A DNA stretch of 64,000 bases from IMG/VR virus record IMGVR_UViG_3300042890_000947, positions 22,230 to 86,229 of that record. One strand, given 5' to 3'. Of this stretch, positions 2,168 to 38,289 are shown piece by piece. Below the pieces are notes generated by a model. The model made no database searches. It saw only the letters and a list, made by a program, of their open reading frames with translations, and was not told where the DNA came from. Numbering within the stretch: position 1 is the stretch's first letter; every line of letters begins with the position of its first letter. The DNA is from a virus. Made by a program: the position numbers and the translations under genes.

Positions 2168-2198
2168 TTGACTTGAGACATAGGATGTGATATAAATA
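2168..2198 (+). promoter_or_regulatory. Sigma70-like promoter of hsp20 with T4-late-like TATAAATA
   Basis: TTGACT at 2168-2173 and TATAAA at 2191-2196 are separated by 17 bases. The -10 region reads TATAAATA (2191-2198), which is also the T4 late promoter core. The spacer ends GGATGTGA, shared with the promoter at 30199. Predicted start of transcription is near 2203, giving a leader of about 57 bases to hsp20. Confidence 0.65.
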
Positions 2199-2203
2199 TG
2201 TAT

Positions 2204-2262
2204 GTCTTCGCCTGAATGGGAAGACTTAAACAACTAACTTGCTAAACAGGAGTTAACACATG
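2204..2262 (+). promoter_or_regulatory. ROSE-like RNA thermometer in the hsp20 leader
   Basis: Two hairpins fill the short leader. Hairpin I pairs GTCTTC (2204-2209) with GAAGAC (2220-2225). Hairpin II pairs TAACTTGCT (2235-2243) with AGGAGTTA (2248-2255) around an AAAC loop, leaving G2241 bulged. The 3' arm is the Shine-Dalgarno sequence AGGAG. A UYGCU strand with a bulged G opposite the SD is the diagnostic motif of ROSE thermometers of alpha- and gammaproteobacterial small heat shock genes. The pairing is seen; heat response is inferred. Confidence 0.6.
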
Positions 2263-2793
2263 ACTATCAATAAAATCCCCTTTTTCGATCCTATGTCTTT
2301 TTCTCTTCCGAAGCAGTTCAATACCACAATTGGATTTGAACCAATCTTGAAGAGACTTTCGGAAATGTCAGAAACCCTTCCTAAGATTCCTACTTATCCG
2401 CCTTACAATATCAGACAGACTGGTGAAAACACCTACGTTATTGAAATCGCTGTTGCTGGTTTTGGCAAGCAGGATCTGGAACTTGAGCTAGAAGATGGTA
2501 AGCTTACCGTCAAGGGCAATATTCATACAAATGACACCGACGACAATTATATCTTCAAGGGAATTGCAGAACGTGCTTTCACTCGCCAGTTCGCTCTGGC
2601 CGATACAATTGAAATTAAGAATGCTGATTTGATTAACGGTATGCTAAAGATTTGGCTTGAACGCTTCATTCCTGAAGATAAGAAGCCAAAGAAAATCAAC
2701 ATCGGCGAAAAGACTGAATCCAAGAAAGAACTTCTCAACGAGGATGGCAATACTGCCACCAAAGAGTATCTACAAGATAGATCGGAGAAGTAA
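2260..2793 (+). CDS. hsp20: Small heat shock protein Hsp20 (IbpA-like)
   Basis: 177 residues. The alpha-crystallin domain spans about residues 45-140: PPYNIRQTGENTYVIEIAVAGF, then DLELELEDGKLTVKG, and GIAERAFTRQFALAD, ending with NGMLKIWLERFIPEDKKPKKI. An ATP-independent holdase chaperone; phage copies are common in T4-like cyanophages, where a role in virion assembly or stress protection is proposed. It has its own promoter and a ROSE-like leader, and overlaps the DUF3563 gene by one base (TAATG). Start supported by AGGAG nine bases upstream. Confidence 0.93.
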   Translation: MTINKIPFFDPMSFSLPKQFNTTIGFEPILKRLSEMSETLPKIPTYPPYNIRQTGENTYVIEIAVAGFGKQDLELELEDGKLTVKGNIHTNDTDDNYIFKGIAERAFTRQFALADTIEIKNADLINGMLKIWLERFIPEDKKPKKINIGEKTESKKELLNEDGNTATKEYLQDRSEK

Positions 2794-3028: not shown

Positions 3029-3042
3029 TTATGGAGAAATGT

Positions 3043-4014
3043 ATGAATAAGACTATGCTTACTCTTGCTGCTGTTCTGTTTGCTTTTGGTACCAGTTCAG
3101 TTTATGCTACCAGTGATGTTATCCGTATTGTAGGATCATCTACAGTTTATCCCTTCACAACCACTGTCGCAGAACAGTTCGCTAAGAAGAATGGTGTTTC
3201 AGCACCAATCGTTGAAGCAACTGGCACTGGTGGTGGTATCAAGATGTTCTGTGCTGGTAACGGTCCGGATACTCCTGATGCTGTGAATGCTTCTCGTAAG
3301 ATGAAGGATGAAGAGAAGAAGATTTGTGCTGAGAATGGTGTAGAAAACATCACCGAAATGGCAATCGGTATTGATGCCATTGTAGTCGCAATGTCTAAGG
3401 ATCATCCTGGCATCAACCTATCAACAAACGATATCTATCGCGCTCTTGCGAAGTATGTGGTTGTTGATGGTAAGTTTGTCGAAAATCCAGTAAAGACTTG
3501 GAATGAGGTTCGTTCTGATCTTCCTTCTGACAAGATTGAAGTTCTTGGCCCGCCGCCAACTTCAGGTACGCGCGACTCATTTGTAGAGTTGGTATTTGAG
3601 AAGGAATGCAAGGCTGACATTAAGAATAACAACTTGATCGTTTCAGAAGAAGATACAAAGGCATTCTGTCAATCAGTTCGTGAAGATGGCGCATACATCG
3701 AAGCGGGTGAGAATGATAATCTAATCGTTCAGAAGCTTCAATCGAATCCTGCTGCTCTCGGTATCTTTGGTTATTCATTCCTTGAAGAGAACCTAAACAC
3801 TATTCAGGGCGCAACAATCAATGATGTTGCACCAGAATATGATGCTATCGCTGCTGGTAATTATCCAATCGCTCGTAAGCTCTATGTTTATTTCAAGGGA
3901 TCACACTTTGAATCAAATCCAGACTTGAAGAAGTTTATGGATGAATATCAGAGCGACGAAGCTATTGGCGAAGAAGGATATTTGGCTGAGAAGGGTCTTA
4001 TCCCGCTTAAGTAA
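3043..4014 (+). CDS. pstS: Periplasmic phosphate-binding protein PstS
   Basis: 323 residues from the ATG at 3043, which has GGAGAA five bases upstream; the ATG at 3031 would place that SD inside the gene. Signal peptide: MNKTMLTLAAVLFAFGTSSVYA, cleavage after AYA-like site (VYA). Phosphate-ligand motifs of PstS are present: IVGSSTVYPF (T/S loop), ATGTGGGI, ASRKMKDEE and PPPTSGTRDSF (SGT-R). Family role: binds periplasmic phosphate for the host PstCAB transporter. In marine phages pstS is an auxiliary metabolic gene boosting phosphate uptake during infection. No Pho box was recognised upstream. Confidence 0.93.
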   Translation: MNKTMLTLAAVLFAFGTSSVYATSDVIRIVGSSTVYPFTTTVAEQFAKKNGVSAPIVEATGTGGGIKMFCAGNGPDTPDAVNASRKMKDEEKKICAENGVENITEMAIGIDAIVVAMSKDHPGINLSTNDIYRALAKYVVVDGKFVENPVKTWNEVRSDLPSDKIEVLGPPPTSGTRDSFVELVFEKECKADIKNNNLIVSEEDTKAFCQSVREDGAYIEAGENDNLIVQKLQSNPAALGIFGYSFLEENLNTIQGATINDVAPEYDAIAAGNYPIARKLYVYFKGSHFESNPDLKKFMDEYQSDEAIGEEGYLAEKGLIPLK

Positions 4015-29058: not shown

Positions 29059-29135
29059 GGTTCCGTAGTTCAACTGGATAGAGCAGTCGCCTTCTAAGCG
29101 ACGAGTTGGGGGTTCGAATCCCTCCGGAACCGCCA
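29059..29135 (+). tRNA. tRNA-Arg(UCU)
   Basis: Acceptor GGTTCCG/CGGAACC, anticodon arm GTCGC-CTTCTAA-GCGAC (TCT), T-loop TTCGAAT, encoded CCA. First gene of the main tRNA cluster. Confidence 0.95.
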
Positions 29136-29136
29136 T

Positions 29137-29219
29137 GTCCCCTTGGTGTAATCGGTAGCCACGGCAGACTTAAAATCTGCTTCTTCGGAGTGCCAGTTCG
29201 AGTCTGGCAGGGGACACCA
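29137..29219 (+). tRNA. tRNA-Leu(UAA)
   Basis: Class II. Acceptor GTCCCCT/AGGGGAC, anticodon arm GCAGA-CTTAAAA-TCTGC, variable arm TTCTTCGGAG, T-loop TTCGAGT, CCA. Follows tRNA-Arg after one base. Confidence 0.95.
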
Positions 29220-29224
29220 ATCAA

Positions 29225-29300
29225 GCGCCTATAGCTCAATGGTTAGAGCTGACGGCTCATAACCGTCTGGTTCCGGGTTCGAATCCTGGTGGGCGCACCA
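29225..29300 (+). tRNA. tRNA with CAU anticodon (Met or Ile2)
   Basis: Acceptor GCGCCTA/TGGGCGC, anticodon arm GACGG-CTCATAA-CCGTC, T-loop TTCGAAT, CCA. 1-72 is G-C, so not an initiator. Could be elongator Met or, if C34 is lysidinylated, Ile for AUA. Three CAU tRNAs occur in the window. Confidence 0.9.
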
Positions 29301-29316
29301 AATAATGAGGAAAGTA

Positions 29317-29532
29317 ATGAGAGTCCAAATGTCTGTTTTTCGTTCCGATGATATGGATCTCAAAGCTATTGTATATTACAATCCTCATAATGATCAGTAT
29401 GAAATCGATTATTGTAAAAATGGATTCTTAGTAACGACCGAATCATATCAAGATCGAGGTCTTATTCATCATGAAGATGCGGCCGAGAACTATGTATATG
29501 GAATCAAAAAGATTGAAGGTAAAATGTCCTAA
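29317..29532 (+). CDS. Hypothetical protein (71 aa)
   Basis: ATG 29317 with AGGAAAG upstream (ATG 29305 is an alternative). MRVQMSVFRSDDMDLKAIVYY, then YEIDYCKNGFLVTTESY. Function unknown. Confidence 0.55.
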   Translation: MRVQMSVFRSDDMDLKAIVYYNPHNDQYEIDYCKNGFLVTTESYQDRGLIHHEDAAENYVYGIKKIEGKMS

Positions 29533-29731
29533 ATGTAAGAAGACTTTCAAAGGAGATGATTATATCGATGCTCTTTTGAATTGTCCGTACTATACATGTG
29601 GACTGAAACAATCTACAGTGAATAATGGCGTGGGTGTTGGTACACAAGAGGGCCTTATAAACCCTTTAGCAGTAGATGACTGTTCTCGACTAGGATCGAA
29701 ACCTAGCACGCCAACCAAATTAGGAAGATGA
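29498..29731 (+). CDS. Possible zinc-ribbon small protein reading through a tRNA gene
   Basis: The frame starting at ATG 29498 encodes KRLKVKCPKCKKTF and LNCPYYTCG, a plausible four-cysteine zinc ribbon, but continues across the whole tRNA gene at 29626-29717 before stopping at 29731. The first ~42 codons look protein-like; the rest is tRNA-derived. No clear SD. May be a real fusion, a gene truncated by a tRNA insertion, or chance. Confidence 0.35.
   Translation: MESKRLKVKCPKCKKTFKGDDYIDALLNCPYYTCGLKQSTVNNGVGVGTQEGLINPLAVDDCSRLGSKPSTPTKLGR
29626..29717 (+). tRNA. Class II tRNA with UAU anticodon
   Basis: Acceptor TGGCGTG/CACGCCA (7 bp), discriminator A, CCA. Short D-arm GTGT-TGGT-ACAC. Anticodon stem AGGG/CCCT plus a C-A mismatch, loop CTTATAA, anticodon TAT. 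Long variable arm (CAGT/ACTG stem) and T-arm CTAGG-ATCGAAA-CCTAG. A long variable arm belongs to Leu, Ser and Tyr tRNAs, whereas UAU would read the Ile codon AUA. The body looks Leu-derived. Confidence 0.7.
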
Positions 29732-29733
29732 AG

Positions 29734-29934
29734 ATGATTACGAAGATGGAAATGAATATCGGTGAGATTTTGGATCTTGCTGCTTGGCTTGAAAAGCACG
29801 GCCTAAAGCGAACACACCGAGTTGTAATCGAACAGGAATGTGGCAACGGTATTGGTACCGCGACACAGGCCAGAGTTAAGACTACTGAATCGGAAGGCAT
29901 CTTTATCGATATCACCGATTATGATGTATGGTGA
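29734..29934 (+). CDS. Hypothetical protein (66 aa)
   Basis: ATG 29734 has AGGAAG seven bases upstream; ATG 29728 is too close to it. MNIGEILDLAAWLEKHGLKR, then VVIEQECGNGIGTATQARVK and EGIFIDITDYDVW, a pattern seen in small phage proteins. Function unknown. Confidence 0.6.
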   Translation: MITKMEMNIGEILDLAAWLEKHGLKRTHRVVIEQECGNGIGTATQARVKTTESEGIFIDITDYDVW

Positions 29935-29938
29935 TGAT

Positions 29939-30118
29939 ATGAACGAATGGCTTGATAAAGGACTTTTCTGTATTGGTTGGGTCAGCTTTATGTGGATTGC
30001 TGATTTGCTTTTGAGTAATACTGGCGTTACGAGTTATGGCGCTCTAATGATTGGTGCTCTATCTATTACAGCGGTAGGACTTATTAAACAATATCGGGCG
30101 AGTGTGGTGAAACGGTAG
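29939..30118 (+). CDS. Small membrane protein whose end overlaps tRNA-Leu
   Basis: 59 residues from ATG 29939: CIGWVSFMWIADLLL and ALMIGALSITAVGL are two membrane helices, basic tail. Its last seven codons, including the TAG stop (30116-30118), lie within the tRNA-Leu(CAA) gene. Confidence 0.5.
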   Translation: MNEWLDKGLFCIGWVSFMWIADLLLSNTGVTSYGALMIGALSITAVGLIKQYRASVVKR

Positions 30119-30179
30119 ACACAGTGGTCTCAAAATCCACCGCGTAAGCATGGGGGTTCAAGTCCCTCCACTCGCACCA
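30098..30179 (+). tRNA. tRNA-Leu(CAA)
   Basis: Class II. Acceptor GCGAGTG/CACTCGC, anticodon loop CTCAAAA in stem GTGG/CCAC, T-arm GGGG-TTCAAGT-CCCT, CCA. Overlaps the end of the upstream membrane protein gene. Confidence 0.92.
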
Positions 30180-30198
30180 AAAATAAATTTTATAATAC

Positions 30199-30229
30199 TT
30201 GACAATCCAGATTGGATGTGATATAAATA
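30199..30229 (+). promoter_or_regulatory. Strong promoter in the tRNA cluster (TTGACA-17-TATAAATA)
   Basis: TTGACA (30199-30204), spacer of 17 ending TTGGATGTGA, TATAAATA (30222-30229). Nearly identical to the hsp20 promoter over the -10 and upstream GGATGTG. Followed by about 175 bases without a convincing gene and then a terminator. Confidence 0.7.
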
Positions 30230-30233
30230 AGAA

Positions 30234-30409
30234 TACAAGTTAATAAGAGAATCGTTCCAACAAAAAATGAAACACCATTATTGCCCCATTGCGAATAATC
30301 AACCAAAAGGTCGTCCATCATGGGCAGGCAACGGGGGTTCTATGATTTGAGTCTTGTTACAGACTTAGATTCTTAAAGAACCCCGATGAGGAAACTCTCG
30401 GGGTTTTTA
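30234..30409 (+). ncRNA. Candidate small RNA between promoter and terminator
   Basis: A strong promoter and a strong terminator bound a ~175-base unit with no gene of normal size. The only open frame is 27 codons from ATG 30268 (MKHHYCPIANN..., ending GGSMI) without an SD. An internal hairpin AGTCT-TGTTAC-AGACT lies near the 3' end. Most simply a small RNA; a micropeptide is the alternative. Confidence 0.5.
30380..30409 (+). terminator. Rho-independent terminator
   Basis: ACCCCGA/TCGGGGT stem continued by GAG/CTC with a GAAA loop and one bulged T, followed by TTTTT. Confidence 0.92.
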
Positions 30410-30449
30410 GTTATGCGAAATAAACATAGCTGCCATGCAAAACAAAACA

Positions 30450-30482
30450 TTGAAAAACAGACTTGCAGGCATTATCTATAGT
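30450..30482 (+). promoter_or_regulatory. Family B promoter-like motif (copy 2)
   Basis: TTGAAA (30450-30455), 21 bases with ACTTGCAGGC, TATAGT (30477-30482) followed by ATGTGA. A related CATAGCTGCCATGC sequence lies just upstream. Precedes the 64-residue protein at 30511. Confidence 0.55.
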
Positions 30483-30510
30483 ATGTGAGAGATTGAGAGA
30501 AGGAGGGGCG

Positions 30511-30705
30511 ATGCTTCACTTCGTAGGGTTTAAAGGCGACGAATACCTTCGGGCTTGTCGCGTGTTTGGTTTACCAGATTTCATCCATCCGGGATGGGAT
30601 CTTCGTGCTCGACGGGAGATAACTCCCGATGATACCGTTGTCTTTGCTACTGGCTCTTTTAATCAGGAGCCGCGTAGTCGATCCTTTAGTGATCTCAAAG
30701 AATAA
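30511..30705 (+). CDS. Conserved small phage protein (64 aa)
   Basis: ATG 30511 with a perfect AGGAGG six bases upstream. FVGFKGDEYLRACRVFGLPDFIHPGWDLRARREI, then DDTVVFATG: a conserved pattern found in many phages, function unknown. Confidence 0.75.
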   Translation: MLHFVGFKGDEYLRACRVFGLPDFIHPGWDLRARREITPDDTVVFATGSFNQEPRSRSFSDLKE

Positions 30706-30735
30706 CGGCTTGCTGATTTACATTGTTAAGTTCCT

Positions 30736-30850
30736 AGAGATAACGAAAGTTATCTCTTCCGAGACACACCAGACAGGACGACAGGTTGGTTCGAAACGTC
30801 TGCGTCCGATACTAGCTTATCGAACTAAACTAGCTGGTGTGTCGCGGAAG
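30736..30850 (+). ncRNA. Structured RNA element upstream of tRNA-Asn
   Basis: Hairpin AGAGATAAC-GAAA-GTTATCTCT (30736-30757) is followed by a 17-position helix: 30756-30772 pairs with 30834-30850 with a single A-G mismatch. Inside, GGACG-A-CAG (30776-30784) pairs with CTGCGTCC (30800-30807). Not a tRNA and no T-run, so not a terminator. Unknown function. Confidence 0.55.
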
Positions 30851-30863
30851 TGATAAGTTTTAT

Positions 30864-30940
30864 TCCCTTGGAGCCGGGTTGGTACCGGCACCTGACTGTT
30901 AATCAGGCCGTTATAGGTTCGAATCCTATTAAGGGAGCCA
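30864..30940 (+). tRNA. tRNA-Asn(GUU)
   Basis: Acceptor TCCCTTG/TAAGGGA, anticodon arm CCTGA-CTGTTAA-TCAGG, T-arm ATAGG-TTCGAAT-CCTAT, discriminator G, CCA. Confidence 0.95.
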
Positions 30941-30944
30941 ATAT

Positions 30945-31019
30945 GCGGGTATAGCTCAGAGGTAGAGCGTCACGTTGCCAACGTGAATGTCGTGGGTTCG
31001 ATCCCCATTTCCCGCTCCA
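30945..31019 (+). tRNA. tRNA-Gly(GCC)
   Basis: Acceptor GCGGGTA/TTCCCGC (one T-T mismatch), anticodon arm TCACG-TTGCCAA-CGTGA, T-loop TTCGATC, CCA. Confidence 0.93.
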
Positions 31020-31023
31020 ATAC

Positions 31024-31098
31024 GCGCCAGTAGCTCAGTGGTAGAGCAGCGGTCTCTTAAACCGACGGTCAAGAGTTCAATTCTCTTCTGGCACACCA
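31024..31098 (+). tRNA. tRNA-Lys(CUU)
   Basis: Acceptor GCGCCAG/CTGGCAC (C2-A71 mismatch), anticodon loop CTCTTAA in CGGT/ACCG stem, T-loop TTCAATT, CCA. Confidence 0.9.
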
Positions 31099-31104
31099 AT
31101 CCAT

Positions 31105-31178
31105 GGTCTTGTAGTGAATGGATATCACACCTCTCTGTCTAAGAGGAGTAACGAGTTTGAGCCTCGTCAAGATCGCCA
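31105..31178 (+). tRNA. tRNA-Asp(GUC)
   Basis: Acceptor GGTCTTG/CAAGATC (one G-U), anticodon arm CCTCT-CTGTCTA-AGAGG, discriminator G, CCA. T-loop TTGAGCC is slightly atypical. Confidence 0.88.
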
Positions 31179-31189
31179 ATAACAGCCCA

Positions 31190-31370
31190 CCTCTTGACAA
31201 TGTGGGTGCCTGACATACGGGCTTGGGGAGAGATATAAAGTATTAAGATATGAAACTCCTCCACCATTTAGTACGCCGAGCATCCTTCGGGATACGCTGG
31301 GTAGGGTTGACGGCACCCTCGCAGTACGAAAGCCGTTATTCTATTAGCGACACAGTGTAACGCTACAGTT
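31190..31370 (+). ncRNA. Intercistronic region with several hairpins
   Basis: No gene. Hairpins visible: ATCC-TTCG-GGAT (near 31272), AGGGT-TGACGGC-ACCCT (near 31307), both inside a GTAC/GTAC-bounded block, and TAGCG/CGCTA near 31340-31360 followed by a short T-run. May be a structured RNA or a processing region between tRNA-Asp and the endonuclease VII gene. Confidence 0.35.
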
Positions 31371-31371
31371 T

Positions 31372-31401
31372 TATAAATACTCTCAAAAGGAGTATTCTAT
31401 G
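31372..31401 (+). promoter_or_regulatory. Late-type promoter core inside an SD-sequestering hairpin
   Basis: TATAAATA (31372-31379) overlaps the 5' arm of a 7-bp hairpin AATACTC (31376-31382) / GAGTATT (31390-31396). The 3' arm contains the SD (GGAG) of the ATG at 31399. T4 gene 49, which also encodes endonuclease VII, is known to be controlled by just such a hairpin and an embedded late promoter. Confidence 0.65.
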
Positions 31402-31719
31402 AAAATCTGTAAACACTGTGGAGAAGAACACAACATGCGCGGCCTATCGTGTAGAGTTTGTAAGGACAATCTGTATAACTATAACATGAACAGAAATGAT
31501 GTTCTTACTCTACATGAGAGTCAAAATGGCAAATGTGCTTTGTGTGATAAAGAAGTTAAGATGTTTAATGGTGGTAGTTACAAAAGCGGTAACGTTGACC
31601 ATTGCCATAAAAATGGAACAGTAAGAGGCATACTTTGCCATCAATGTAACACTTTCGTTGGTTACATGGAAAATAAAGTTCCGTTCTATAAGTTAAAAAG
31701 TTATCTGGGTGTAGCGTAA
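31399..31719 (+). CDS. 49: Recombination endonuclease VII (T4 gp49-like)
   Basis: 106 residues, shorter than T4 gp49 (157). N-terminal CKHCGEEHNMRGLSCRVCK gives one Cys pair set; CALCDKEVKMF, VDHCHKNGTVRGILCHQCNTFVGYMEN is the endonuclease VII His-Cys core. Resolves branched DNA before packaging. The T4 C-terminal dimerization/specificity part seems reduced. The last five codons overlap tRNA-Pro. Confidence 0.85.
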   Translation: MKICKHCGEEHNMRGLSCRVCKDNLYNYNMNRNDVLTLHESQNGKCALCDKEVKMFNGGSYKSGNVDHCHKNGTVRGILCHQCNTFVGYMENKVPFYKLKSYLGVA

Positions 31720-31782
31720 TCTGGTTATCGCGTCTGCTTTGGGAGCAGAAGACTGAGGGTTCAAATCCTTCCACCCAGACCA
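31705..31782 (+). tRNA. tRNA-Pro(UGG)
   Basis: Acceptor CTGGGTG/CACCCAG with the C1-G72 pair typical of Pro, anticodon arm TCTGC-TTTGGGA-GCAGA with G37, T-loop TTCAAAT, CCA. Its 5' strand overlaps the end of the endonuclease VII gene. Confidence 0.93.
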
Positions 31783-31856
31783 ATTTAGTAAGCCCCTAAA
31801 GGGAACGCCGGGTCACTCCCGAGCCGAAGCGAAGGAAACTTCGCCGAGTTTTAAAA

Positions 31857-31935
31857 CAGTGTGTAGGGGAGTCTGGCCGTCCCCACTACCCTTGGAAGGT
31901 AGGGATCGGTGGTTCAAATCCACCTACACTGACCA
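31857..31935 (+). tRNA. tRNA-Pro(UGG)-like, second copy
   Basis: Acceptor CAGTGTG/TACACTG (C1-G72), D-stem GGGG/CCCC, anticodon arm CTACC-CTTGGAA-GGTAG (anticodon TGG), class I variable loop, T-arm GGTGG-TTCAAAT-CCACC, CCA. Position 37 is A rather than the G37 needed for m1G in Pro tRNAs. A GCGAAG-GAAA-CTTCGC hairpin precedes it (near 31830). Confidence 0.8.
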
Positions 31936-31938
31936 ATC

Positions 31939-32027
31939 GCTGGATTACTATAGAGATGGTAGGTGCACTCTGTCTCTTGTGCGTACCAGTAGAGGACAGG
32001 CTGACACCTCTATAAAAACGCGCCAGC
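31939..32027 (+). ncRNA. Structured RNA between tRNA-Pro and tRNA-Trp
   Basis: Nested pairing: GCTGG (31939-31943)/CCAGC (32023-32027), ATAGAG (31950-31955)/CTCTAT (32008-32013), GGTA/TACC and GCAC/GTGC inside. No T-arm consensus, so not a tRNA; no coding frame. Confidence 0.45.
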
Positions 32028-32033
32028 AATTCT

Positions 32034-32108
32034 ATCAGTGTGGTGTAGCGGTAACATGCCGGTCTCCAAAACCGTGCGTCTAGGGTTCAAATCCTTACAC
32101 TGATGCCA
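32034..32108 (+). tRNA. tRNA-Trp(CCA)
   Basis: Acceptor ATCAGTG/CACTGAT, discriminator G, anticodon loop CTCCAAA in CGGT/ACCG stem, T-loop TTCAAAT, CCA. A1-U72 with G73 fits bacterial Trp identity. Confidence 0.92.
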
Positions 32109-32113
32109 ATAAT

Positions 32114-32188
32114 GGGGTGCTGATGATAACGGGAGCATGCCGCCCTTGCAAGGCGGACGACAGGGTTCGATTCCCTGGCATTCCACCA
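32114..32188 (+). tRNA. tRNA-Ala(UGC)
   Basis: Acceptor GGGGTGC/GCATTCC with two G-U pairs, anticodon arm CCGCC-CTTGCAA-GGCGG, T-arm CAGGG-TTCGATT-CCCTG, CCA. The canonical G3-U70 Ala pair is present. Confidence 0.92.
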
Positions 32189-32306
32189 GTTTGACTTGAT
32201 TACTTACGCTTGAGACACCATCCGCTTGAGGTTGGAATAATGTTATCAAGATAAGTCGCCAAATATCAAGCACATTCGTACCGACCGCGTGAGGTACAGC
32301 AGTTTT

Positions 32307-32392
32307 GGGTGAGCGGCAACGACGGCGAGTTGCGGCGGACTGTAAATCCCCTGTCTAGTACTTAGTTGGTTCGAATCCAACCTCACCCACCA
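32307..32392 (+). tRNA. tRNA-Tyr(GUA)
   Basis: Class II. Acceptor GGGTGAG/CTCACCC, anticodon loop CTGTAAA, variable arm about CTGTCTAGTACTTAG, T-arm TTGG-TTCGAAT-CCAA, CCA. One mismatch in the anticodon stem. The preceding gap (32189-32306) holds a GTACC/GGTAC hairpin and nothing else recognised. Confidence 0.9.
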
Positions 32393-32398
32393 AATTAT

Positions 32399-32609
32399 CC
32401 AGTATTCTAGACATGCTGGAGAGACCTCGCAAGACTATCAGAGGGGAATGCTTGCTAATATCGGATTGCTTACCTCAATAAGCGCAATGGGCTGAACCGA
32501 TAGGGTGTAAAGAATAAGAACTTGCCGAAAGGCATACGAAGCAGGCCTAGTGGTCGGTAGAAATGGCAGGGCATGAGCCCGTGCGCTCTGGGTGTAGAAA
32601 TACCCGACC
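32399..32609 (+). ncRNA. Multi-hairpin RNA between tRNA-Tyr and tRNA-Ile
   Basis: Gene-free 227-base gap with a run of helices: CCAG/CTGG (32399/32416), CCTC/GAGG (32425/32441), ATCGG/CCGAT (32460/32497) enclosing ATTGC/GCAAT, TGCC-GAAA-GGCA (32523-32534), and GGTCGG/CCGACC (32552/32604) enclosing GGGC-ATGA-GCCC. T4 encodes two small stable RNAs of unknown role in its tRNA cluster; this may be an analogue. No intron core was recognised. Confidence 0.5.
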
Positions 32610-32620
32610 AATTAATTTAC

Positions 32621-32695
32621 TGGCGCATAGCTCAGAGGTAGAGCACTGTCCTGATAAGACAGGGGTGGAAGGATCGTTACCTTCTGTGCCAACCA
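32621..32695 (+). tRNA. tRNA-Ile(GAU)
   Basis: Acceptor TGGCGCA/TGTGCCA, anticodon arm CTGTC-CTGATAA-GACAG, CCA. T-loop ATCGTTA departs from the usual TTCRANY. Confidence 0.88.
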
Positions 32696-32696
32696 A

Positions 32697-33086
32697 TTAC
32701 TGCTGACTTGGAGCAATGTCGTATGGAATACGCTTCTTCTTTTTCTTCGGTGGCGGTGTAGGCTTAGGCACAGGCATTACAACAGGCTTCTGCTTTGCTG
32801 CCTTAAGTTCCTTGTTGAGTTGATTGATAACAAGTCTTTGATCCTCAACCTTTGTATTAAGATAATCAACATCTTCCGTTAGAGTTGTGATCTGACCTTC
32901 AAGATCAGTCTTCTCTTTGATAACAACTTCAAGGTTATGTTGTGCTATTGATGCTTGTTCCTGATATTGCTTAGCCGAGGCATAATAGTTTCTGGCTTCA
33001 AATAAAAGATAGAACGTTGTGAAAACTGAAATGGCACAAAGCAAAAGTAATAACAGTGTTGGCATAGTTCTAAGTCCTTTTTTCAT
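32697..33086 (-). CDS. Membrane-anchored coiled-coil protein, spanin-like shape
   Basis: 129 residues on the minus strand, RBS AGGATT. Basic N-terminus, one membrane helix (TLLLLLLCAISVFTTFYLLF), a periplasmic coiled coil (about residues 35-95) and a Pro/Lys-rich tail (PKPTPPPKKKKKR). This architecture resembles an inner-membrane spanin (Rz type), but no outer-membrane partner is visible. Its 3' end stops two bases from tRNA-Ile, so its transcript could run antisense into the tRNA cluster. Confidence 0.65.
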   Translation of the reverse strand: MKKGLRTMPTLLLLLLCAISVFTTFYLLFEARNYYASAKQYQEQASIAQHNLEVVIKEKTDLEGQITTLTEDVDYLNTKVEDQRLVINQLNKELKAAKQKPVVMPVPKPTPPPKKKKKRIPYDIAPSQQ

Positions 33087-33129
33087 AGTGCTAATCCTGT
33101 AGTAGACATTTAAAGTATATAGTTAATAT

Positions 33130-33203
33130 TGGGAGATCGTCTAAAGGTAGGACGCAGGATTTTGATTCCTGCTATCTAGGTTCGAATCCTAGTCTCCCAG
33201 CCA
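33130..33203 (+). tRNA. tRNA-Gln(UUG)
   Basis: Acceptor TGGGAGA/TCTCCCA, discriminator G, anticodon loop TTTTGAT in CAGGA/TCCTG, T-loop TTCGAAT, CCA. Confidence 0.94.
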
Positions 33204-33206
33204 ATT

Positions 33207-33281
33207 GAACCCTTAACTCAGTGGTAGAGTAGCGGGCTTTTAATCCGTCTGTCCTGGGTTCGAATCCCAGAGGGTTCTCCA
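33207..33281 (+). tRNA. tRNA-Lys(UUU)
   Basis: Acceptor GAACCCT/AGGGTTC, anticodon loop CTTTTAA, T-arm CTGGG-TTCGAAT-CCCAG, CCA. Confidence 0.94.
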
Positions 33282-33286
33282 AATAT

Positions 33287-33361
33287 GGTTCCATCGACTA
33301 TCGGTTAGGTCAGGTCCCTTTCAAGGATCAGAGGCGGGTTCGACTCCCGCTGGAACTACCA
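33287..33361 (+). tRNA. tRNA-Glu(UUC)
   Basis: Acceptor GGTTCCA/TGGAACT (G1-U72 wobble), anticodon arm GGTCC-CTTTCAA-GGATC, T-arm GCGGG-TTCGACT-CCCGC, CCA. Confidence 0.94.
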
Positions 33362-33372
33362 ATCAAGGAGTT

Positions 33373-33507
33373 ATGATGTTCAAACTCACTTCATTATCTG
33401 CTATCGGAGCTAAGTCGTTGGCCAAGCAGTATGTGAGATTCGGTTACAAACTGGTCTCACAAATTTATGACAAGAAGAAAGAGATATACATTAGTACATT
33501 TAAGTAA
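33373..33507 (+). CDS. Small basic protein (44 aa)
   Basis: AAGGAG upstream; MMFKLTSLSAIGAKSLAKQYV... ending KKKEIYISTFK. Amphipathic, net basic. Lies between tRNA-Glu and the unusual CAU tRNA. Too short for family assignment. Confidence 0.5.
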   Translation: MMFKLTSLSAIGAKSLAKQYVRFGYKLVSQIYDKKKEIYISTFK

Positions 33508-33510
33508 TAA

Positions 33511-33586
33511 GGCGGATAGGACAAAGAAGGTAAGTCGTCGGTCTCATAAGCCGAAGGAGTTGGGGCAGATCCAACATCCGCAACCA
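33511..33586 (+). tRNA. Atypical tRNA with CAU anticodon
   Basis: Acceptor GGCGGAT/ATCCGCA with position 1-72 as a G-A mismatch, anticodon arm TCGGT-CTCATAA-GCCGA, T-stem GTTGG/CCAAC perfect but T-loop GGCAGAT instead of TTCRANY, D-arm GAC/GTC, CCA encoded. The anticodon arm is identical to that of the CAU tRNA at 35595. An unpaired 1-72 is an initiator feature, but the stem lacks three G-C pairs. Confidence 0.7.
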
Positions 33587-33587
33587 A

Positions 33588-33662
33588 CCCGTTTTAGTTC
33601 AATGGTTAGAACGCATGTCTGTGGAACATGATACGGTGGTTCGATTCCACCACTCGGGACCA
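33588..33662 (+). tRNA. tRNA-His(GUG)
   Basis: Anticodon arm CATGT-CTGTGGA-ACATG, T-arm GGTGG-TTCGATT-CCACC, CCA. Acceptor CCCGTTT/ACTCGGG pairs at only five of seven positions, with mismatches at 5-68 and 6-67. Confidence 0.82.
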
Positions 33663-33670
33663 CTTTGTTC

Positions 33671-33709
33671 ATTCATTTGTACATATAGACGCTTCGCGTA
33701 CAAACGAAT
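33671..33709 (+). other. 12-bp hairpin between tRNA genes
   Basis: ATTCATTTGTAC (33671-33682) pairs with GTACAAACGAAT (33698-33709) with one mismatch; 15-base loop. No T-run. Possibly a processing signal between tRNA-His and tRNA-Gln. Confidence 0.5.
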
Positions 33710-33715
33710 AGACAT

Positions 33716-33789
33716 TGCCGGGTCGTCTAACGGTAGGACGCATGACTCTGACTCATGCTATCGTGGTTCGAATCCATGCCTGGCAGCCA
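33716..33789 (+). tRNA. tRNA-Gln(CUG)
   Basis: Acceptor TGCCGGG/CCTGGCA, discriminator G, anticodon arm CATGA-CTCTGAC-TCATG, T-loop TTCGAAT, CCA. Second Gln tRNA in the cluster. Confidence 0.93.
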
Positions 33790-33805
33790 GAATAAATAAG
33801 TTAAT

Positions 33806-33881
33806 GGAGCCGTAGCAAAACGATTAATGCGCGGGACTGCAAATCCTTGAGGTATCAGTTTGAATCTGATCGGCTCCTCCA
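33806..33881 (+). tRNA. tRNA-Cys(GCA)
   Basis: Acceptor GGAGCCG/CGGCTCC, discriminator T (U73 is the Cys identity base), anticodon loop CTGCAAA, T-arm ATCAG-TTTGAAT-CTGAT, CCA. Confidence 0.92.
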
Positions 33882-33886
33882 ATAAT

Positions 33887-33978
33887 GCATTCGTATCCCC
33901 CTCCGCTACGAACGGAGAGAAAGGTAACTGGAAATGGTATAACAACTAATGCAGGTTCGAATCCTGTCGAATGCTCCA
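33887..33978 (+). tRNA. Noncanonical tRNA-like gene with ACG anticodon arm next to the acceptor strand
   Basis: Acceptor GCATTCG/CGAATGC (7 bp), T-arm GCAGG-TTCGAAT-CCTGT, discriminator T and encoded CCA are normal. The only good anticodon arm, CTCCG-CTACGAA-CGGAG (33901-33917, anticodon ACG, Arg), follows the 5' acceptor strand by seven bases, leaving no room for a D-arm. Then 33 bases including GGTAACTGGAAATGG separate it from the T-arm. May be a D-armless or rearranged tRNA-Arg, or one carrying an insertion. Confidence 0.6.
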
Positions 33979-33994
33979 TTAAAGGAAAAAATTA

Positions 33995-34342
33995 ATGAAG
34001 CTTATTAAAACTTTAATTGCTACATCATTTTTATTTGTGGCAATGCCTTCTGCTCATGCTACCGTTGCTTCCTGGTATGATTGTGTGAAACCGGGTGAAT
34101 GTAGTAAGAGCAAGATTACTGCTAACGGGGAAAGATTTAACCCCAATGCGTTGACAGCGGCGCATAAGACTCTTCCTTTCGGTACAAAAGTTCGTATTAC
34201 CTATAAGGGAAGGTCAGTTGTCGTGAGAATAAATGATCGCGGCCCATTTATTAAGGGTCGTCATATTGATCTTTCCAGGGCTGCTGCTCGGAAGATTGGA
34301 TGTCATGGAGTTTGTAAAGTACAAATAGCTGTGATAAAATAA
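33995..34342 (+). CDS. RlpA-like secreted protein (septal ring lytic transglycosylase domain)
   Basis: 115 residues: signal peptide [22 protein letters not shown], then the double-psi beta-barrel of Rlp[32 protein letters not shown] and [15 protein letters not shown]. Asp in NDRGP and His in AAHKT are the catalytic pair in RlpA transglycosylases. No lipobox and no SPOR domain. A periplasmic muralytic role, in lysis or wall remodelling, is inferred. Confidence 0.88.
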
Positions 34343-34441
34343 TATGTGTTAGAGGTTTGTGAGTGGACTGTAATTGACTGGAAACTCTCGTTAATCATAA
34401 AAGTGGAGGGCGTAACCACTATAAGAAATCGCATCGAATTT

Positions 34442-34529
34442 GGATAGATGGCCGAGCGGCTGAAGGCGCCAGTCTTGAAAACTGGAGAACAGAAATGTTT
34501 CGTGGGTTCGAATCCTACTCTATCCGCCA
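34442..34529 (+). tRNA. tRNA-Ser(UGA)
   Basis: Class II. Acceptor GGATAGA/TCTATCC, D-arm TGGCCGAGCGGCTGAAGGCG, anticodon arm CCAGT-CTTGAAA-ACTGG, variable arm, T-loop TTCGAAT, discriminator G, CCA. The preceding gap (34343-34441) holds only a GTGG/CCAC hairpin. Confidence 0.95.
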
Positions 34530-34532
34530 CTT

Positions 34533-34638
34533 TCGGGACGCAGCCAGAGTAACTGAGACAACTGGCTTAATGAGTAACTGCTGGCAAAGCCGCTAAATGA
34601 CTTTCTCAGGTCGTGCAGAGGCTCACGTACCCGATCCA
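34533..34638 (+). ncRNA. tRNA-like structured RNA ending in CCA
   Basis: TCGGG-ACG (34533-34540) pairs with CGT-A-CCCGA (34626-34634), directly followed by T and CCA, like an acceptor stem. Inside, AGCCAG/CTGGCT and CTGGC/GCC pairings replace the normal arms, and AGTAACTG occurs twice. No T-arm consensus. Not a functional tRNA by sequence. Confidence 0.4.
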
Positions 34639-34655
34639 ATTAAAAGGAAAACAAT

Positions 34656-34802
34656 ATGAGTAAAGACTGTGGTTGCGGAAGAAGTCCAACTGGAAAATGT
34701 ATTGGTTGGCATGGGTTGACAAACGAAGATTATTCTGCTAAACTTAAAGAATACGAAAAGAAGCAGTTAATGGAATCTGCCCCACAACTACTAAAGGAAT
34801 AA
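34656..34802 (+). CDS. Small CxCGRSPTGKCIGWH protein (48 aa)
   Basis: AAGGAAA upstream. MSKDCGCGRSPTGKCIGWHGL, then an acidic helical tail. The Cys-rich N-terminus (three Cys plus His) is typical of a conserved small phage/proteobacterial protein, probably metal binding. Function unknown. Confidence 0.65.
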   Translation: MSKDCGCGRSPTGKCIGWHGLTNEDYSAKLKEYEKKQLMESAPQLLKE

Positions 34803-34804
34803 AT

Positions 34805-34880
34805 GTGTTCTTGGTGAAGCTGGTGCTCACGTTCGCCTGAAGAGCGAAAGAACTCTGTTCGATCCAGAGAGAACACACCA
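34805..34880 (+). tRNA. tRNA-Phe(GAA)
   Basis: Acceptor GTGTTCT/AGAACAC, D-stem GTGA/TCAC, anticodon arm TTCGC-CTGAAGA-GCGAA, T-arm CTCTG-TTCGATC-CAGAG, CCA. G37 in place of the usual A. Confidence 0.93.
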
Positions 34881-34892
34881 AATCGCATATAT

Positions 34893-34900
34893 TATAAATA
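34893..34900 (+). promoter_or_regulatory. Late-type TATAAATA box
   Basis: Exact T4 late promoter core 59 bases upstream of the Gly/Asn-rich secreted protein. No recognisable -35. Confidence 0.4.
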
Positions 34901-34958
34901 AGTATATACACTATGTTGTATGTTACTAATACGTAATCGTGAAAAGAGGAATACAAAA

Positions 34959-35585
34959 ATGAAGTTTATTGTTTTAATCGGCGCAGTAGCACTGGCCGCA
35001 ACTACTTTCACTCCACTCGCTCATGCCAGTGCCGCTCTTGGCGGCCTTGACAAGCAATGTTATAATGCTCTTCGCAAGGAATGGTCTGGTTGTAATAAGG
35101 GATCAGGCGCAGATAATAAGAATCTTCCAGACTTTAAGTTTAATCCGAAGTCTCACGGCAAGCCAGGAAAGCCAGGCGGTAACGGTGGCAATGGTAATGG
35201 CAACGGCGGTACCGATAACGGCGGTGATGGCAACAACGGCGGTGGCGATAATGGCAACGGAGGCGACAACGGTAACGGAGGCGACAATGGAGGCGATAAC
35301 GGTAACGGTGGTGATAACGGTAATGGCGGTGACAATGGCAACGGTGGCAATAATGGCGGCGATGGTGGTTGCCAAGGAGCTGGCGGCGGTAACTGCGGCA
35401 TAGGAAACGGTGGCGGTGGTGGTAATGGAACCGGCAACGAAGGTAATGGCAACGGCCCTGGAGATAATAGCAATCAGCCCGACAATAACAACGGCGGTGG
35501 TAATAACTCAAACTCTCCTCAACTCAACAGCAATGACATAAAGGGTTTTGATCCTTCCACCGGTCTATACGGCCCTGGTACCTAA
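34959..35585 (+). CDS. Secreted Gly/Asn/Asp-rich repeat protein
   Basis: 208 residues from ATG 34959 (AGAGGAA upstream). Signal peptide MKFIVLIGAVALAATTFTPLAHA, short conserved N-domain with GLDKQCYNALRKEWSGC, then about 130 residues of NGG/DNGNGG-type repeats and an Asn-rich tail ending DPSTGLYGPGT. Likely an extended periplasmic or surface protein; similar Gly-rich proteins occur in rhizobial genomes. The antisense strand is also open here because of the repeat composition. Confidence 0.75.
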   Translation: MKFIVLIGAVALAATTFTPLAHASAALGGLDKQCYNALRKEWSGCNKGSGADNKNLPDFKFNPKSHGKPGKPGGNGGNGNGNGGTDNGGDGNNGGGDNGNGGDNGNGGDNGGDNGNGGDNGNGGDNGNGGNNGGDGGCQGAGGGNCGIGNGGGGGNGTGNEGNGNGPGDNSNQPDNNNGGGNNSNSPQLNSNDIKGFDPSTGLYGPGT

Positions 35586-35594
35586 TCACACAAA

Positions 35595-35670
35595 GCGTCT
35601 TGGGAGGTGTTGGCAATCTCATCGGTCTCATAAGCCGAACAACCCAGTTCGAAACTTGGAAGACGCACCA
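35595..35670 (+). tRNA. tRNA-Met(CAU)
   Basis: Acceptor GCGTCTT/AAGACGC, D-stem GAG/CTC, anticodon arm TCGGT-CTCATAA-GCCGA, T-loop TTCGAAA, CCA. Third CAU tRNA; regular 1-72 pair, so likely elongator Met or Ile2. Confidence 0.88.
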
Positions 35671-35716
35671 AACTAAATACTTCACGGTCAATCAAGGCCA
35701 ATAATGAGGTATTAAC

Positions 35717-35890
35717 ATGCTAAACACACTCGTTGTATTAGTTCTAGTCGCTGCCGTTCTCTGGGTTCTCTGGGAAATGTGGCAGAATGGTTGGGATCTT
35801 AAGAAGGGTGGCGCTGCTATCGTAGCCGCTGCTGCTGCTTGGTGGGTCTGGGTTCACGATTCAGTATCTTCACTAATTTCTGGAATGTAA
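35717..35890 (+). CDS. Small two-helix membrane protein (57 aa)
   Basis: GAGGT upstream. LVVLVLVAAVLWVLW, then a basic turn (NGWDLKKGG) and AAIVAAAAAWWVWV. Holin-like in size and topology but far from the lysis cassette; function unknown. Confidence 0.6.
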   Translation: MLNTLVVLVLVAAVLWVLWEMWQNGWDLKKGGAAIVAAAAAWWVWVHDSVSSLISGM

Positions 35891-35906
35891 ATAAAGAACC
35901 GTCGTT

Positions 35907-36001
35907 GGCCCGTGACGGTATATAAATCCTCGGGGTGTAAGTTCCTGCCTTGACCCTTCCATAAGGAATCACTGATCGCAGTAACCGCTAACGGGCCTCC
36001 A
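35907..36001 (+). ncRNA. tRNA-like RNA with 7-bp acceptor and T-CCA end
   Basis: GGCCCGT (35907-35913) pairs perfectly with ACGGGCC (35991-35997), followed by T and CCA. A second helix CGGT/ACCG continues the stem after a small internal loop. Inside are hairpins TTCC-ATAA-GGAA and ACTG-ATCG-CAGT, but no TTCRANY T-loop and no convincing anticodon arm. ACCGTC/GACGGT (35899/35914) is a competing hairpin. Confidence 0.45.
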
Positions 36002-36010
36002 ATTTAAATG

Positions 36011-36210
36011 CCGATTCCGACGGGAATCGGTCGAGTGCAAGGAAATGGCTGGACGCAAAGACCGGCTAACTTGGCTAGATGGTGTGGTGCCCGCGCGTGA
36101 TCTACGAGAGTAGAAGACGTGTCGTTTCCGACCAAGAAAATCTAGGCTGTCGCGTTGAACAGGTATCTGGGCCGTGACTTGTGGGTGTACCCGAATCCCA
36201 CCTCACCTTA
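36011..36210 (+). ncRNA. Gene-free structured segment before the heme-oxygenase-like gene
   Basis: Perfect hairpin CCGATTCC-GACG-GGAATCGG (36011-36030), CTAC-GAGA-GTAG near 36100, and GTGGG/CCCAC (36181/36197) resembling a T-stem with an enlarged loop (contains CCCGAAT). Together with 35907-36001 this 337-base gap is unusually rich in stable hairpins. Nothing coding is supported before 36229. Confidence 0.35.
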
Positions 36211-36228
36211 TTAACTATAGGAGCATTA

Positions 36229-36726
36229 ATGCCTGGACCATTATGGGAAGCGACTAGAGACTTACACCATGCTTGTGAAGCGCATCCTGTTGGTGCTGCT
36301 ATGGCAAGTGGTAGTCCACCTATGAAATGGTATGCTGACTGGCTTTCCGCTCTTTACACTATACACTGGGAAGTTGATCAACATATTCCGAAAGTCATCC
36401 ATAGAACGGAAAGAGTTCAAAATGACTTGACAGCCACAAACTGTCCTGCTAATATAATACGTGCTGCTAACAAATATACCAATTCCTTGATAACGGAAAA
36501 AGATATTGCAGGCGCTGCTTATGTTCTTACTGGAGCGCACCTGATGGGCGGCGAGATTATGCGTAGGCGTCTTGTTGGTTATCCTACTACACATCTGGAA
36601 TGGGATGATCGTAAAGCTGCACTTGTGGAACTAAACAAGTTTAGAGAGCGTGAAGAGATTGCAGAGGAATCTAAAAACTGTTTTCATGCTCTTCTAAAGA
36701 TTATGGACGAAATTAAGGCCGATTAG
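36229..36726 (+). CDS. Heme oxygenase-fold protein (tentative)
   Basis: 165 residues from ATG 36229 (AGGAG eight bases upstream). All-helical; TRDLHHACEAHPVGAAMASG offers a candidate proximal histidine and GAAYVLTGAHLMGGEIMRRRL resembles the distal helix of bacterial heme oxygenases. ALYTIHWEVDQHIPKVIHR lies between. True heme oxygenase activity is not established; it may be a HO-like fold of other function. The last ten bases overlap tRNA-Val. Confidence 0.45.
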   Translation: MPGPLWEATRDLHHACEAHPVGAAMASGSPPMKWYADWLSALYTIHWEVDQHIPKVIHRTERVQNDLTATNCPANIIRAANKYTNSLITEKDIAGAAYVLTGAHLMGGEIMRRRLVGYPTTHLEWDDRKAALVELNKFREREEIAEESKNCFHALLKIMDEIKAD

Positions 36727-36792
36727 CTCAGTGGTAGTAGCGTCTCGTTTACACCGAGAATGTCGGGAGTTCGAATCTCTCATCGGCTACCA
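36717..36792 (+). tRNA. tRNA-Val(UAC)
   Basis: Acceptor GGCCGAT/ATCGGCT (G1-U72 wobble), anticodon arm TCTCG-TTTACAC-CGAGA, T-loop TTCGAAT, CCA. Overlaps the preceding gene; the tRNA's conserved TAG at positions 8-10 supplies that gene's stop codon. Confidence 0.92.
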
Positions 36793-36797
36793 ATAAC

Positions 36798-36879
36798 GCG
36801 GATATGGTGAAATGGCAGACACGCTAGTCTTAGGAACTAGTGCTTCGGCGTGGGGGTTCAAGTCCCTCTATCCGCACCA
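36798..36879 (+). tRNA. tRNA-Leu(UAG)
   Basis: Class II. Acceptor GCGGATA/TATCCGC, anticodon arm CTAGT-CTTAGGA-ACTAG, variable arm TGCTTCGGCGT, T-loop TTCAAGT, CCA. Third Leu tRNA. Confidence 0.95.
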
Positions 36880-36884
36880 ACTAC

Positions 36885-36958
36885 GCCTCTATAGTATAAA
36901 GGTAGTACACGGCTTTGGTAAAGCCGAGACACAGGATCGATACCTGTTAGAGGCACCA
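36885..36958 (+). tRNA. tRNA-Thr(GGU)
   Basis: Acceptor GCCTCTA/TAGAGGC, anticodon arm CGGCT-TTGGTAA-AGCCG, CCA; T-arm ACAGG-ATCGATA-CCTGT. Normal class I. Confidence 0.9.
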
Positions 36959-36973
36959 TATAAATAGTTACAT

Positions 36974-37060
36974 GCTGGCTTGGCTGAACGGCTGAAGGCA
37001 ACGGTTTTGTAATCCGTCGGAGTAATCCCATTGCAGGTTCGAATCCTGTGGCCAGCACCA
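36974..37060 (+). tRNA. Class II tRNA with UGU (Thr) anticodon on a Ser-type body
   Basis: Acceptor GCTGGCT/GGCCAGC, D-arm of Ser type (TGGCTGAACGGCTGAAGGCA), anticodon loop TTTGTAA (TGT), long variable arm (about CGGAGTAATCCCATT), T-loop TTCGAAT, A73, CCA. Thr tRNAs are normally class I. G1-C72, C2-G71 and G35-U36 match known ThrRS identity bases, while the body matches Ser tRNAs. A TATAAATA box (36959-36966) precedes it. Confidence 0.82.
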
Positions 37061-37079
37061 TTTTTTTAGGAACTTAATA

Positions 37080-37574
37080 ATGATTAGAAAGCATCTCGAC
37101 CTAGACGCCGTTCGTGCGTTTATTCAATCACAATCTCCAGAAACAAAGGTATATCTTGGTGGCGACTCCGAACGCTTTCAAATCGATGGCGTGTGGTATG
37201 CTGACTACATCAATGTGGTAGTTGTTCATAAGAACGGCAAGAACGGTTGTAAGGTATTTGGTGGTATCGTGCGTGAGCGCGACTATGACCAGAACAAGGA
37301 CAAGCCACGGATGCGTTTGATGAATGAAGTAATGAAGACTGCTTCGCTATATCTGGAACTATACGATGTGCTTGAGGATCGTGAAACAGAAATCCACTTG
37401 GACATTAATCCAGACATGAAGCATGGTTCTTCATGCGTTATCAACGAAGCTGTTGGCTACATTCGTGGTATGTGTAACATCATACCTCTGGTTAAGCCAA
37501 ATGCTTGGGCCGCATCTTACTGTGCGGATCGATATAAGGACGCTATTCAACACGCACATAAGGCGGTAGCATAA
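37080..37574 (+). CDS. RNase H-like protein (DUF458/YkuK type)
   Basis: 164 residues. VYLGGDSERFQIDGVWYADYINVVV, KVFGGIVRERDYD, MRLMNEVMKTASLYLELYDVLE, then EIHLDINPDMKHGSS and VGYIRGMCNIIPLVKPNAWAAS: the DUF458 pattern, with the D of GGDS and of HLDINP as putative RNase H-type metal ligands. RNA cleavage is a possibility, not shown. Confidence 0.75.
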   Translation: MIRKHLDLDAVRAFIQSQSPETKVYLGGDSERFQIDGVWYADYINVVVVHKNGKNGCKVFGGIVRERDYDQNKDKPRMRLMNEVMKTASLYLELYDVLEDRETEIHLDINPDMKHGSSCVINEAVGYIRGMCNIIPLVKPNAWAASYCADRYKDAIQHAHKAVA

Positions 37575-37771
37575 TGTTTATCAAGTTAACGAATATGGTT
37601 CCTGAACGAAAAGGTGATCCTCTATACCTCAATGTAAATCATATCAAGGTGGTATATGAGGATCACGTTGAAGGAGGCAGTCTTTTGACTCAAGTCCATG
37701 CAGAGAATGTTACATGGTCTGTCGAAGAAAGTCTTGGTGAAGTAATGAAGTTGATTGGAGAAGCAGTTTAA
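37574..37771 (+). CDS. Small FlbD-like protein (65 aa)
   Basis: TAATG overlap. MFIKLTNMVPERKGDPLYLNVNHIKVVYE, then VTWSVEESLGEVMKLIGEA, like the short FlbD/phage protein family (strand-strand-helix). Function unknown. Confidence 0.6.
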   Translation: MFIKLTNMVPERKGDPLYLNVNHIKVVYEDHVEGGSLLTQVHAENVTWSVEESLGEVMKLIGEAV

Positions 37772-37772
37772 A

Positions 37773-38198: not shown

Positions 38199-38199
38199 T

Positions 38200-38289
38200 G
38201 GAAGGTTGGCCGAGTGGTCTAAGGCACCTCACTGCTAACGAGACGTACCTTAATCGGTACCGAGGGTTCGAATCCCTCACCTTCCGCCA
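38200..38289 (+). tRNA. tRNA-Ser(GCU)
   Basis: Class II. Acceptor GGAAGGT/ACCTTCC, D-arm TGGCCGAGTGGTCTAAGGCA, anticodon loop CTGCTAA, long variable arm with GTACC/GGTAC, T-arm GAGGG-TTCGAAT-CCCTC, G73, CCA. Last tRNA of the cluster. Confidence 0.94.

Follow-up and report, generated by a model that had tools for sequence, protein, structure and literature searches.

How is the output of a small heat shock gene set in a virus? The question is raised by IMG/VR virus record IMGVR_UViG_3300042890_000947, in which hsp20, a gene for an IbpA-like small heat shock protein, is preceded by a short leader. The stretch analysed (the window) is 64,000 nucleotides long and covers positions 22230-86229 of the 86-kb record. 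An initial annotation had read the leader as an RNA thermometer of the ROSE type. Probably, this leader is a short ROSE-like element, carried by the phage, that controls hsp20 translation and is opened by heat. The two-hairpin leader itself is confirmed as a real feature.

The hsp20 Leader

The 57-base leader and its two hairpins were described correctly in the initial annotation, in coordinates as well as in pairings, and both covary in sets of 44 and 80 leaders. In hairpin 1, positions 2204-2209 pair with 2220-2225 and positions 2211-2212 pair with 2218-2219. The bulged G of this hairpin, G2210, had not been part of the initial description. In hairpin 2, positions 2235-2240 and 2242-2243 pair with 2248-2255 around the loop AAAC (2244-2247). 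Here G2241 is bulged and faces the Shine-Dalgarno (SD) sequence AGGAG (2248-2252), as had been proposed; a G is found at this place in 80 of 80 relatives. The leader (2203-2259) is recognised by model R1 with 70 bits (E = 1.4e-13), the window sequence being partly included in the training of R1, and by model R2 with 61 bits.

Taken as a single sequence, the window makes a moderate case for a ROSE-type leader. The core TYGCTNNNNAGGAG occurs once where 0.22 occurrences are expected by chance, the fold of the leader has z = -2.42, and Rfam gives no match (see below). A competing fold, CUUG/CAGG plus AGUUA/UGACU, is predicted at 25-37 °C and covers the start codon too. It is predicted to be about equally stable once the coding sequence is included; the conserved positions are not its basis.

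Table 1. Coordinates of the hsp20 leader, its parts, and the associated promoter and gene in the window.
Feature	Positions	Strand	Basis
hsp20 5' leader, complete two-hairpin ROSE-like element, 57 nt	2203..2259	+	Models R1 and R2; alignment A1
Hairpin 1, GUCUUC-G-CC / GG-GAAGAC, bulged G2210	2204..2225	+	Covarying stem
Hairpin 2 (sensor), UAACUU-G-CU / AGGAGUUA, loop AAAC, bulged G2241	2235..2255	+	Conserved core pairs
UUGCU anti-SD strand, matching the ROSE motif U(U/C)GCU	2239..2243	+	Relatives; definition in PMC3669281
SD sequence AGGAG, held in hairpin 2	2248..2252	+	Predicted mostly paired
Promoter, TTGACT (2168-2173), 17-bp spacer, TATAAATA (2191-2198)	2168..2198	+	Sequence
hsp20 (177 aa), for an IbpA-like small heat shock protein	2260..2793	+	Pfam PF00011; PHROG 432

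Conservation and Covariation

In a first set of 80 IMG/VR hsp20 loci, chosen by protein similarity, the leader is present wherever a contig end does not remove it. Alignment A1 holds 44 distinct leaders. Compensatory changes are found in these at 7 of the 9 pairs of hairpin 1. All 44 keep the core pairs of hairpin 2 (C-G, U-A, U/C-G, and C-G). One of these pairs varies, at the Y of UYGCU (UG in 33, CG in 11), and the closing U-A pair is flipped to A-U in four. Double-changed cells number 102 against 37 in shuffled alignments of the 44 leaders, and 243 against 76 in a wider set of 80 leaders. The bulged G of hairpin 1 is retained in 79 of 80 leaders of this wider set, and the loop of this hairpin varies freely (UAAU, GAAA, or UUCG). 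Chance is excluded by this conservation and covariation.

The element is almost wholly limited to hsp20 genes. The first set was extended with cyanophage-like and pelagiphage-like sets, all selected by protein, to 186 phage hsp20 leaders. The strict core is present in 151 of these and in one of 318 other SD-bearing starts on the same contigs. Many of the non-strict leaders are, by eye, recognisable variants such as AACUUU-G-CUU/AAGGAGGUU and AGAC-G-CUU/AAGGAGGUCU. Three DNA pattern scans of the whole IMG/VR collection were made without protein information, and the matches lay before hsp20 in 88 of 93 cases (plus three truncated contigs) and in 113 of 120 (plus four truncated contigs). Across 516 kb, model R1 gave 80 matches, 79 of them at an hsp20 start.

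Two side observations concern the form and use of the hairpins. The AGAC-G-CUU...AAGGAGGUCU variant keeps the bulged G, replaces UYGCU, and has a fully complementary outer helix (loci L213, L216-L230, L235, L238, L239, L243, L247, L250, and L255). The same two-hairpin leader also stands before a different small gene of 65-79 aa in L464 (10464), L498 (minus strand), and L546 (1856), where the hairpin 1 stems differ from those of hsp20 leaders. The products of these genes had no Pfam match at E 0.01, and the one that was compared with PHROG had no match there. The element may thus have been redeployed to another gene.

Relationship to the ROSE Families

ROSE-like elements are defined by two to four hairpins, the last of which pairs U(U/C)GCU imperfectly with the SD (PMC3669281), and the bulged G is part of the definition (PMC11182007). 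The window leader has two hairpins with the SD in the last, and UUGCU is paired with AGGA with G2241 bulged. It lies in the 5' untranslated region of a small heat shock gene, within the transcript expected from the promoter.

A match to the Rfam ROSE models had been named by the initial annotation as a check on this identity, and a lack of one as evidence against it. None of ROSE, ROSE_2, and ROSE_3 matches the window leader at E <= 10. ROSE (RF00435) and ROSE_2 (RF01832) have no match over the whole record, and ROSE_3 has one unrelated 10-bit match elsewhere in it. Weak Rfam matches of snoRNA and CRISPR type on the leader and window were judged to be chance.

The link to ROSE_3 (RF02523) can be seen in the relatives, and it runs in both directions. 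This model finds the leaders of Methylophilales phage Melnitz (34.1 bits, E = 9e-4), loci L276 (30.0 bits) and L139 (29.8 bits), and phage C48C1 (26.8 bits). All four are under the 43-bit cutoff and are positioned exactly at the leader. Model R2, which was trained on phage leaders alone, detects more than 40 bacterial ibpA leaders, nearly all from Pseudomonas and Azotobacter (up to 35 bits, best E = 2e-5). The proposed ROSE identity is supported by homology, covariation, and the two-way link, and it is not supported by a Rfam match of the leader itself. Because Rfam misses this leader, it is called ROSE-like here and thermosensing is left out of the class assignment. As judged from these comparisons, its placement as a phage branch related to ROSE_3, of the short two-hairpin type, appears well supported.

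The Pseudomonas ibpA thermometers are two-hairpin elements of 61-62 nt that were proven by probing and reporters (PMC3669281). The phage leaders share with them a length of about 60 nt, U(U/C)GCU paired with the SD in hairpin 2, a bulged G in both hairpins, a position a few nucleotides before an IbpA-type gene, and models that cross-detect. They differ in being AT-richer and, in T4-like phages, in having phage or sigma70-type promoters where sigma32 is reported for Pseudomonas. The window leader, unlike Pseudomonas ROSE_3, escapes the Rfam model, and in some phage lineages a further hairpin lies upstream, the 5' flank is tRNA-like, or the core is altered to AGAC-G-CUU. Classical ROSE of rhizobia (RF00435) and ROSE_2 of E. 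coli ibpA (RF01832) share the logic of the sensor hairpin and the gene class. However, these have three to four hairpins and do not match the window leader at any threshold tried.

Promoter and Gene

The hsp20 start codon is at 2260, with the SD 7 nt upstream, and the Pfam Hsp20 match of the product has E = 1.7e-17. The promoter element TATAAATA can be read as a sigma70 -10 and equally as a T4-type late promoter, and it ends 5 nt 5' of hairpin 1 (start 2204). Most relatives have TTGAC[A/T]-N17-TATAAATA/TATATATA located 1-8 nt 5' of hairpin 1. Since the promoter is kept in most relatives, the 5' end of the hsp20 mRNA is expected at hairpin 1, near 2203. The anti-SD strand would therefore be inside the transcript.

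The upstream side of hairpin 1 varies. In one group of relatives, an extra hairpin lies between the promoter and hairpin 1, about 25-35 nt upstream, and the same promoter is then found about 24-39 nt 5' of hairpin 1. The stem of the extra hairpin varies with covariation, and its interior, GGAUAA.GURUUGCGUACC, is conserved (loci L018, L020, L039, L042, L045, L057, L065, L073-L077, L079, and L080). In other loci, a tRNA-Gly-like element of 70-71 nt, GCGGG.UAGUUUAAUGAAAAU...CCCGCUCCA, adjoins hairpin 1 and occupies the place of the promoter (L016:2862-2932, L023:2875, L029:2863, L036:516, L037:2854, L038:2884, and L040:2883). ARAGORN calls no tRNA there, and the Rfam tRNA score in L038 (24.8 bits) is below the cutoff of 29. 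A true tRNA was thus rejected, and the element is best described as tRNA-like and sub-threshold. In those loci, the 5' end of the hsp20 mRNA may be made by tRNA-type processing.

Predicted Temperature Response and Alternative Explanations

Sequestration of the SD in hairpin 2 is supported by structure prediction and by covariation. The SD is more closed in phage hsp20 leaders than at other genes (0.30 vs. 0.43 unpaired at 20 °C, p = 3e-7). From this structure, a mechanism can be proposed. Transcription would begin at hairpin 1, and hairpin 2 would keep the SD in an imperfect helix weakened by the bulged G. Under normal conditions, little Hsp20 would be translated from the existing mRNA. Upon warming, hairpin 2 would melt, hairpin 1 would remain folded, and the ribosome could bind. 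Chaperone output could then follow within minutes and would need no new transcription. The transcription start, melting by heat in the relevant range, and the resulting rise in Hsp20 are inferred parts of this mechanism.

Some results weigh against a leader opened by heat. In addition to the missing Rfam match, the predicted opening from 15 to 40 °C is hardly steeper than at other genes (0.075 vs. 0.069). Folding over a range of temperatures, which the initial annotation had suggested, predicts gradual opening and no sharp switch, the window SD being 0.01 unpaired at 10 °C and 0.21 unpaired at 45 °C. The waters of many carriers undergo small and slow changes in temperature, and a phage infection lasts hours. 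With the same nearest-neighbour energies, the SD of Pseudomonas aeruginosa PA7 ibpA goes from 0.02 to 0.30, which is comparable, and sharp switching is not seen in bacterial ROSE leaders either. Nearest-neighbour melting was rejected as proof of thermosensing, since it does not decide the question.

The leader could instead be mainly a binding site of the phage Hsp20, a rather unlikely explanation that would make it a sensor of aggregation or assembly. Free Hsp20 oligomers would bind both hairpins and block translation, and unfolded phage or host proteins would titrate Hsp20 away so that translation resumes. In E. coli, IbpA binds the ROSE element in the 5' untranslated region of its own mRNA and thereby represses translation; R93 and the aromatic Y34 are essential for this (PMC10474464). 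The features shared by the phages are an IbpA-type protein with the essential arginine and aromatic residue behind a ROSE-type leader. Of 201 phage Hsp20s, 196 retain R93 and all have Y/F34; the window Hsp20 has an arginine at both positions 93 and 97. Hairpin 1 has no contact with the SD, yet it combines a nearly constant bulged G with free swapping of its loop, as expected with protein contacts. The bulged G beside a changeable tetraloop looks like a contact site. However, IbpA-type proteins generally have this arginine, which could be retained for chaperone function, and at position 98, where E. coli IbpA also requires K, the window protein has Q. Self-repression may coexist with opening by heat. 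As a second input, it appears to be a serious alternative or addition and would deserve equal experimental attention.

It is improbable that the leader is an ordinary SD-sequestering structure that senses neither temperature nor Hsp20, and that either fixes translation at a low level or is the target of a repressor such as a T4-type RegA. The shallow predicted temperature response would fit this, as would the position of hsp20 directly 3' of regA in S-PM2 and S-CRM01, but the UYGCU/bulged-G core, hairpin 1, and the similarity to the ROSE profile at the same type of gene would be left unexplained. A chance resemblance of a single leader has a next to negligible probability. The modest single-sequence statistics and the missing Rfam match of the window leader are what it could draw on, and covariation and conservation have already refuted it. 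With the heat-opened ROSE-like element still preferred, a wider proposal can be put forward only tentatively. The element would be virus-borne and old in its lineage, and it would control a core chaperone in most T4-like Kyanoviridae and their freshwater relatives. In waters of near-constant temperature, it would sense mainly free Hsp20, and thereby unfolded or assembling phage proteins, with opening by heat as the second input.

Distribution and Origin

The leaders of named phages were examined individually. The element is present before hsp20 in the Synechococcus phages S-PM2, S-RIM2, S-SM1, S-CRM01, S-CREM1, and SynMITS9220M01, the Prochlorococcus phages P-SSM2 and P-RSM1, the pelagiphages HTVC008M and Mosig, Methylophilales phage Melnitz, and phage C48C1. 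HTVC115P and Pseudomonas phage PA5oct have a weaker form, and S-TIM5 has at best a distant variant. Model R1 detects 14 of 17 named-phage records at E < 1. A relative of the window Hsp20 was found in 496 records of the phage collection, the leaders of which were sampled only. By extrapolation from the sampled leaders and the IMG/VR scans, hundreds of ocean and lake phages would carry the leader.

The initial annotation had seen in the leader a hint of a rhizobial-type host. This finds no support, as the same leader is found in phages that infect Synechococcus, Prochlorococcus, Pelagibacter, and Methylophilales. The RNA class is uninformative on a rhizobial host, and inferring the host from it was rejected. 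In the Hsp20 tree, the bacterial IbpAs group together in a clade separate from that of the window protein, and the deep forks are weak. With that limit, the tree lends no support to a recent capture of hsp20, be it from a rhizobial host or from Pseudomonas. A single-protein scan of bacterial genomes yielded no relative.

Two records stand apart. Locus L350 (CAIWHI010000271.1), labelled as an uncultured Bacteroidetes metagenome-assembled genome, has a phage-type hsp20 in the window clade, a leader with 47 bits for R2, and a tRNA; it is probably a contig of phage origin that was binned with a bacterial genome. Locus L187 (OQ572409.1, 'Pseudomonas phage Y7', UNVERIFIED) encodes an Hsp20 at about zero distance from Pseudomonas aeruginosa IbpA behind a leader with 69 bits for ROSE_3, and what was deposited there as phage is likely bacterial DNA.

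Other Features of the Record

The window encodes a T4-type DNA polymerase, with Synechococcus T4-like phages as the nearest relatives (about 50% identity), and a DnaB-type helicase. A RecA-fold protein of the window may be UvsX. Upstream of the leader, the protein encoded at 652-2154 has 500 aa, and its C-terminus is minor-coat/DUF6445-like. Immediately 3' of hsp20 lies the gene of a PstS-like phosphate-binding protein (3031-4014). A zeta-toxin/AAA kinase-like domain is present in a protein of 1046 aa (44106-47246). The window also has 29 tRNA genes, mostly clustered, and a manA cis-regulatory RNA (29059-38289 and 36013-36209).

Significance

The hsp20 gene is a cyanophage core gene with a guessed role in scaffolding (PMC3037559). 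In the open-access papers examined, its leader is mentioned neither in work on phage Hsp20 nor in that core-genome paper (PMC3037559), and it goes unreported in a study in which S-CREM1 was searched with Rfam. The phage RNA thermometers counted in these papers are lambda cIII, SPbeta blyA (fourU), and a sigma70 candidate (PMC10586365, PMC11182007). This makes two or three, and in the papers examined none is of the ROSE type or precedes a chaperone gene. They are phage-encoded thermosensing leaders, as the hsp20 leader probably is, but they belong to other RNA classes and genes. The present leader adds a deeply conserved class across major marine and freshwater phages. Its natural variation can be used to study the functioning of ROSE elements and, among their features, the role of the bulged G in hairpin 1. 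With it, viral sensing of temperature or of protein-folding load at translation becomes directly testable.
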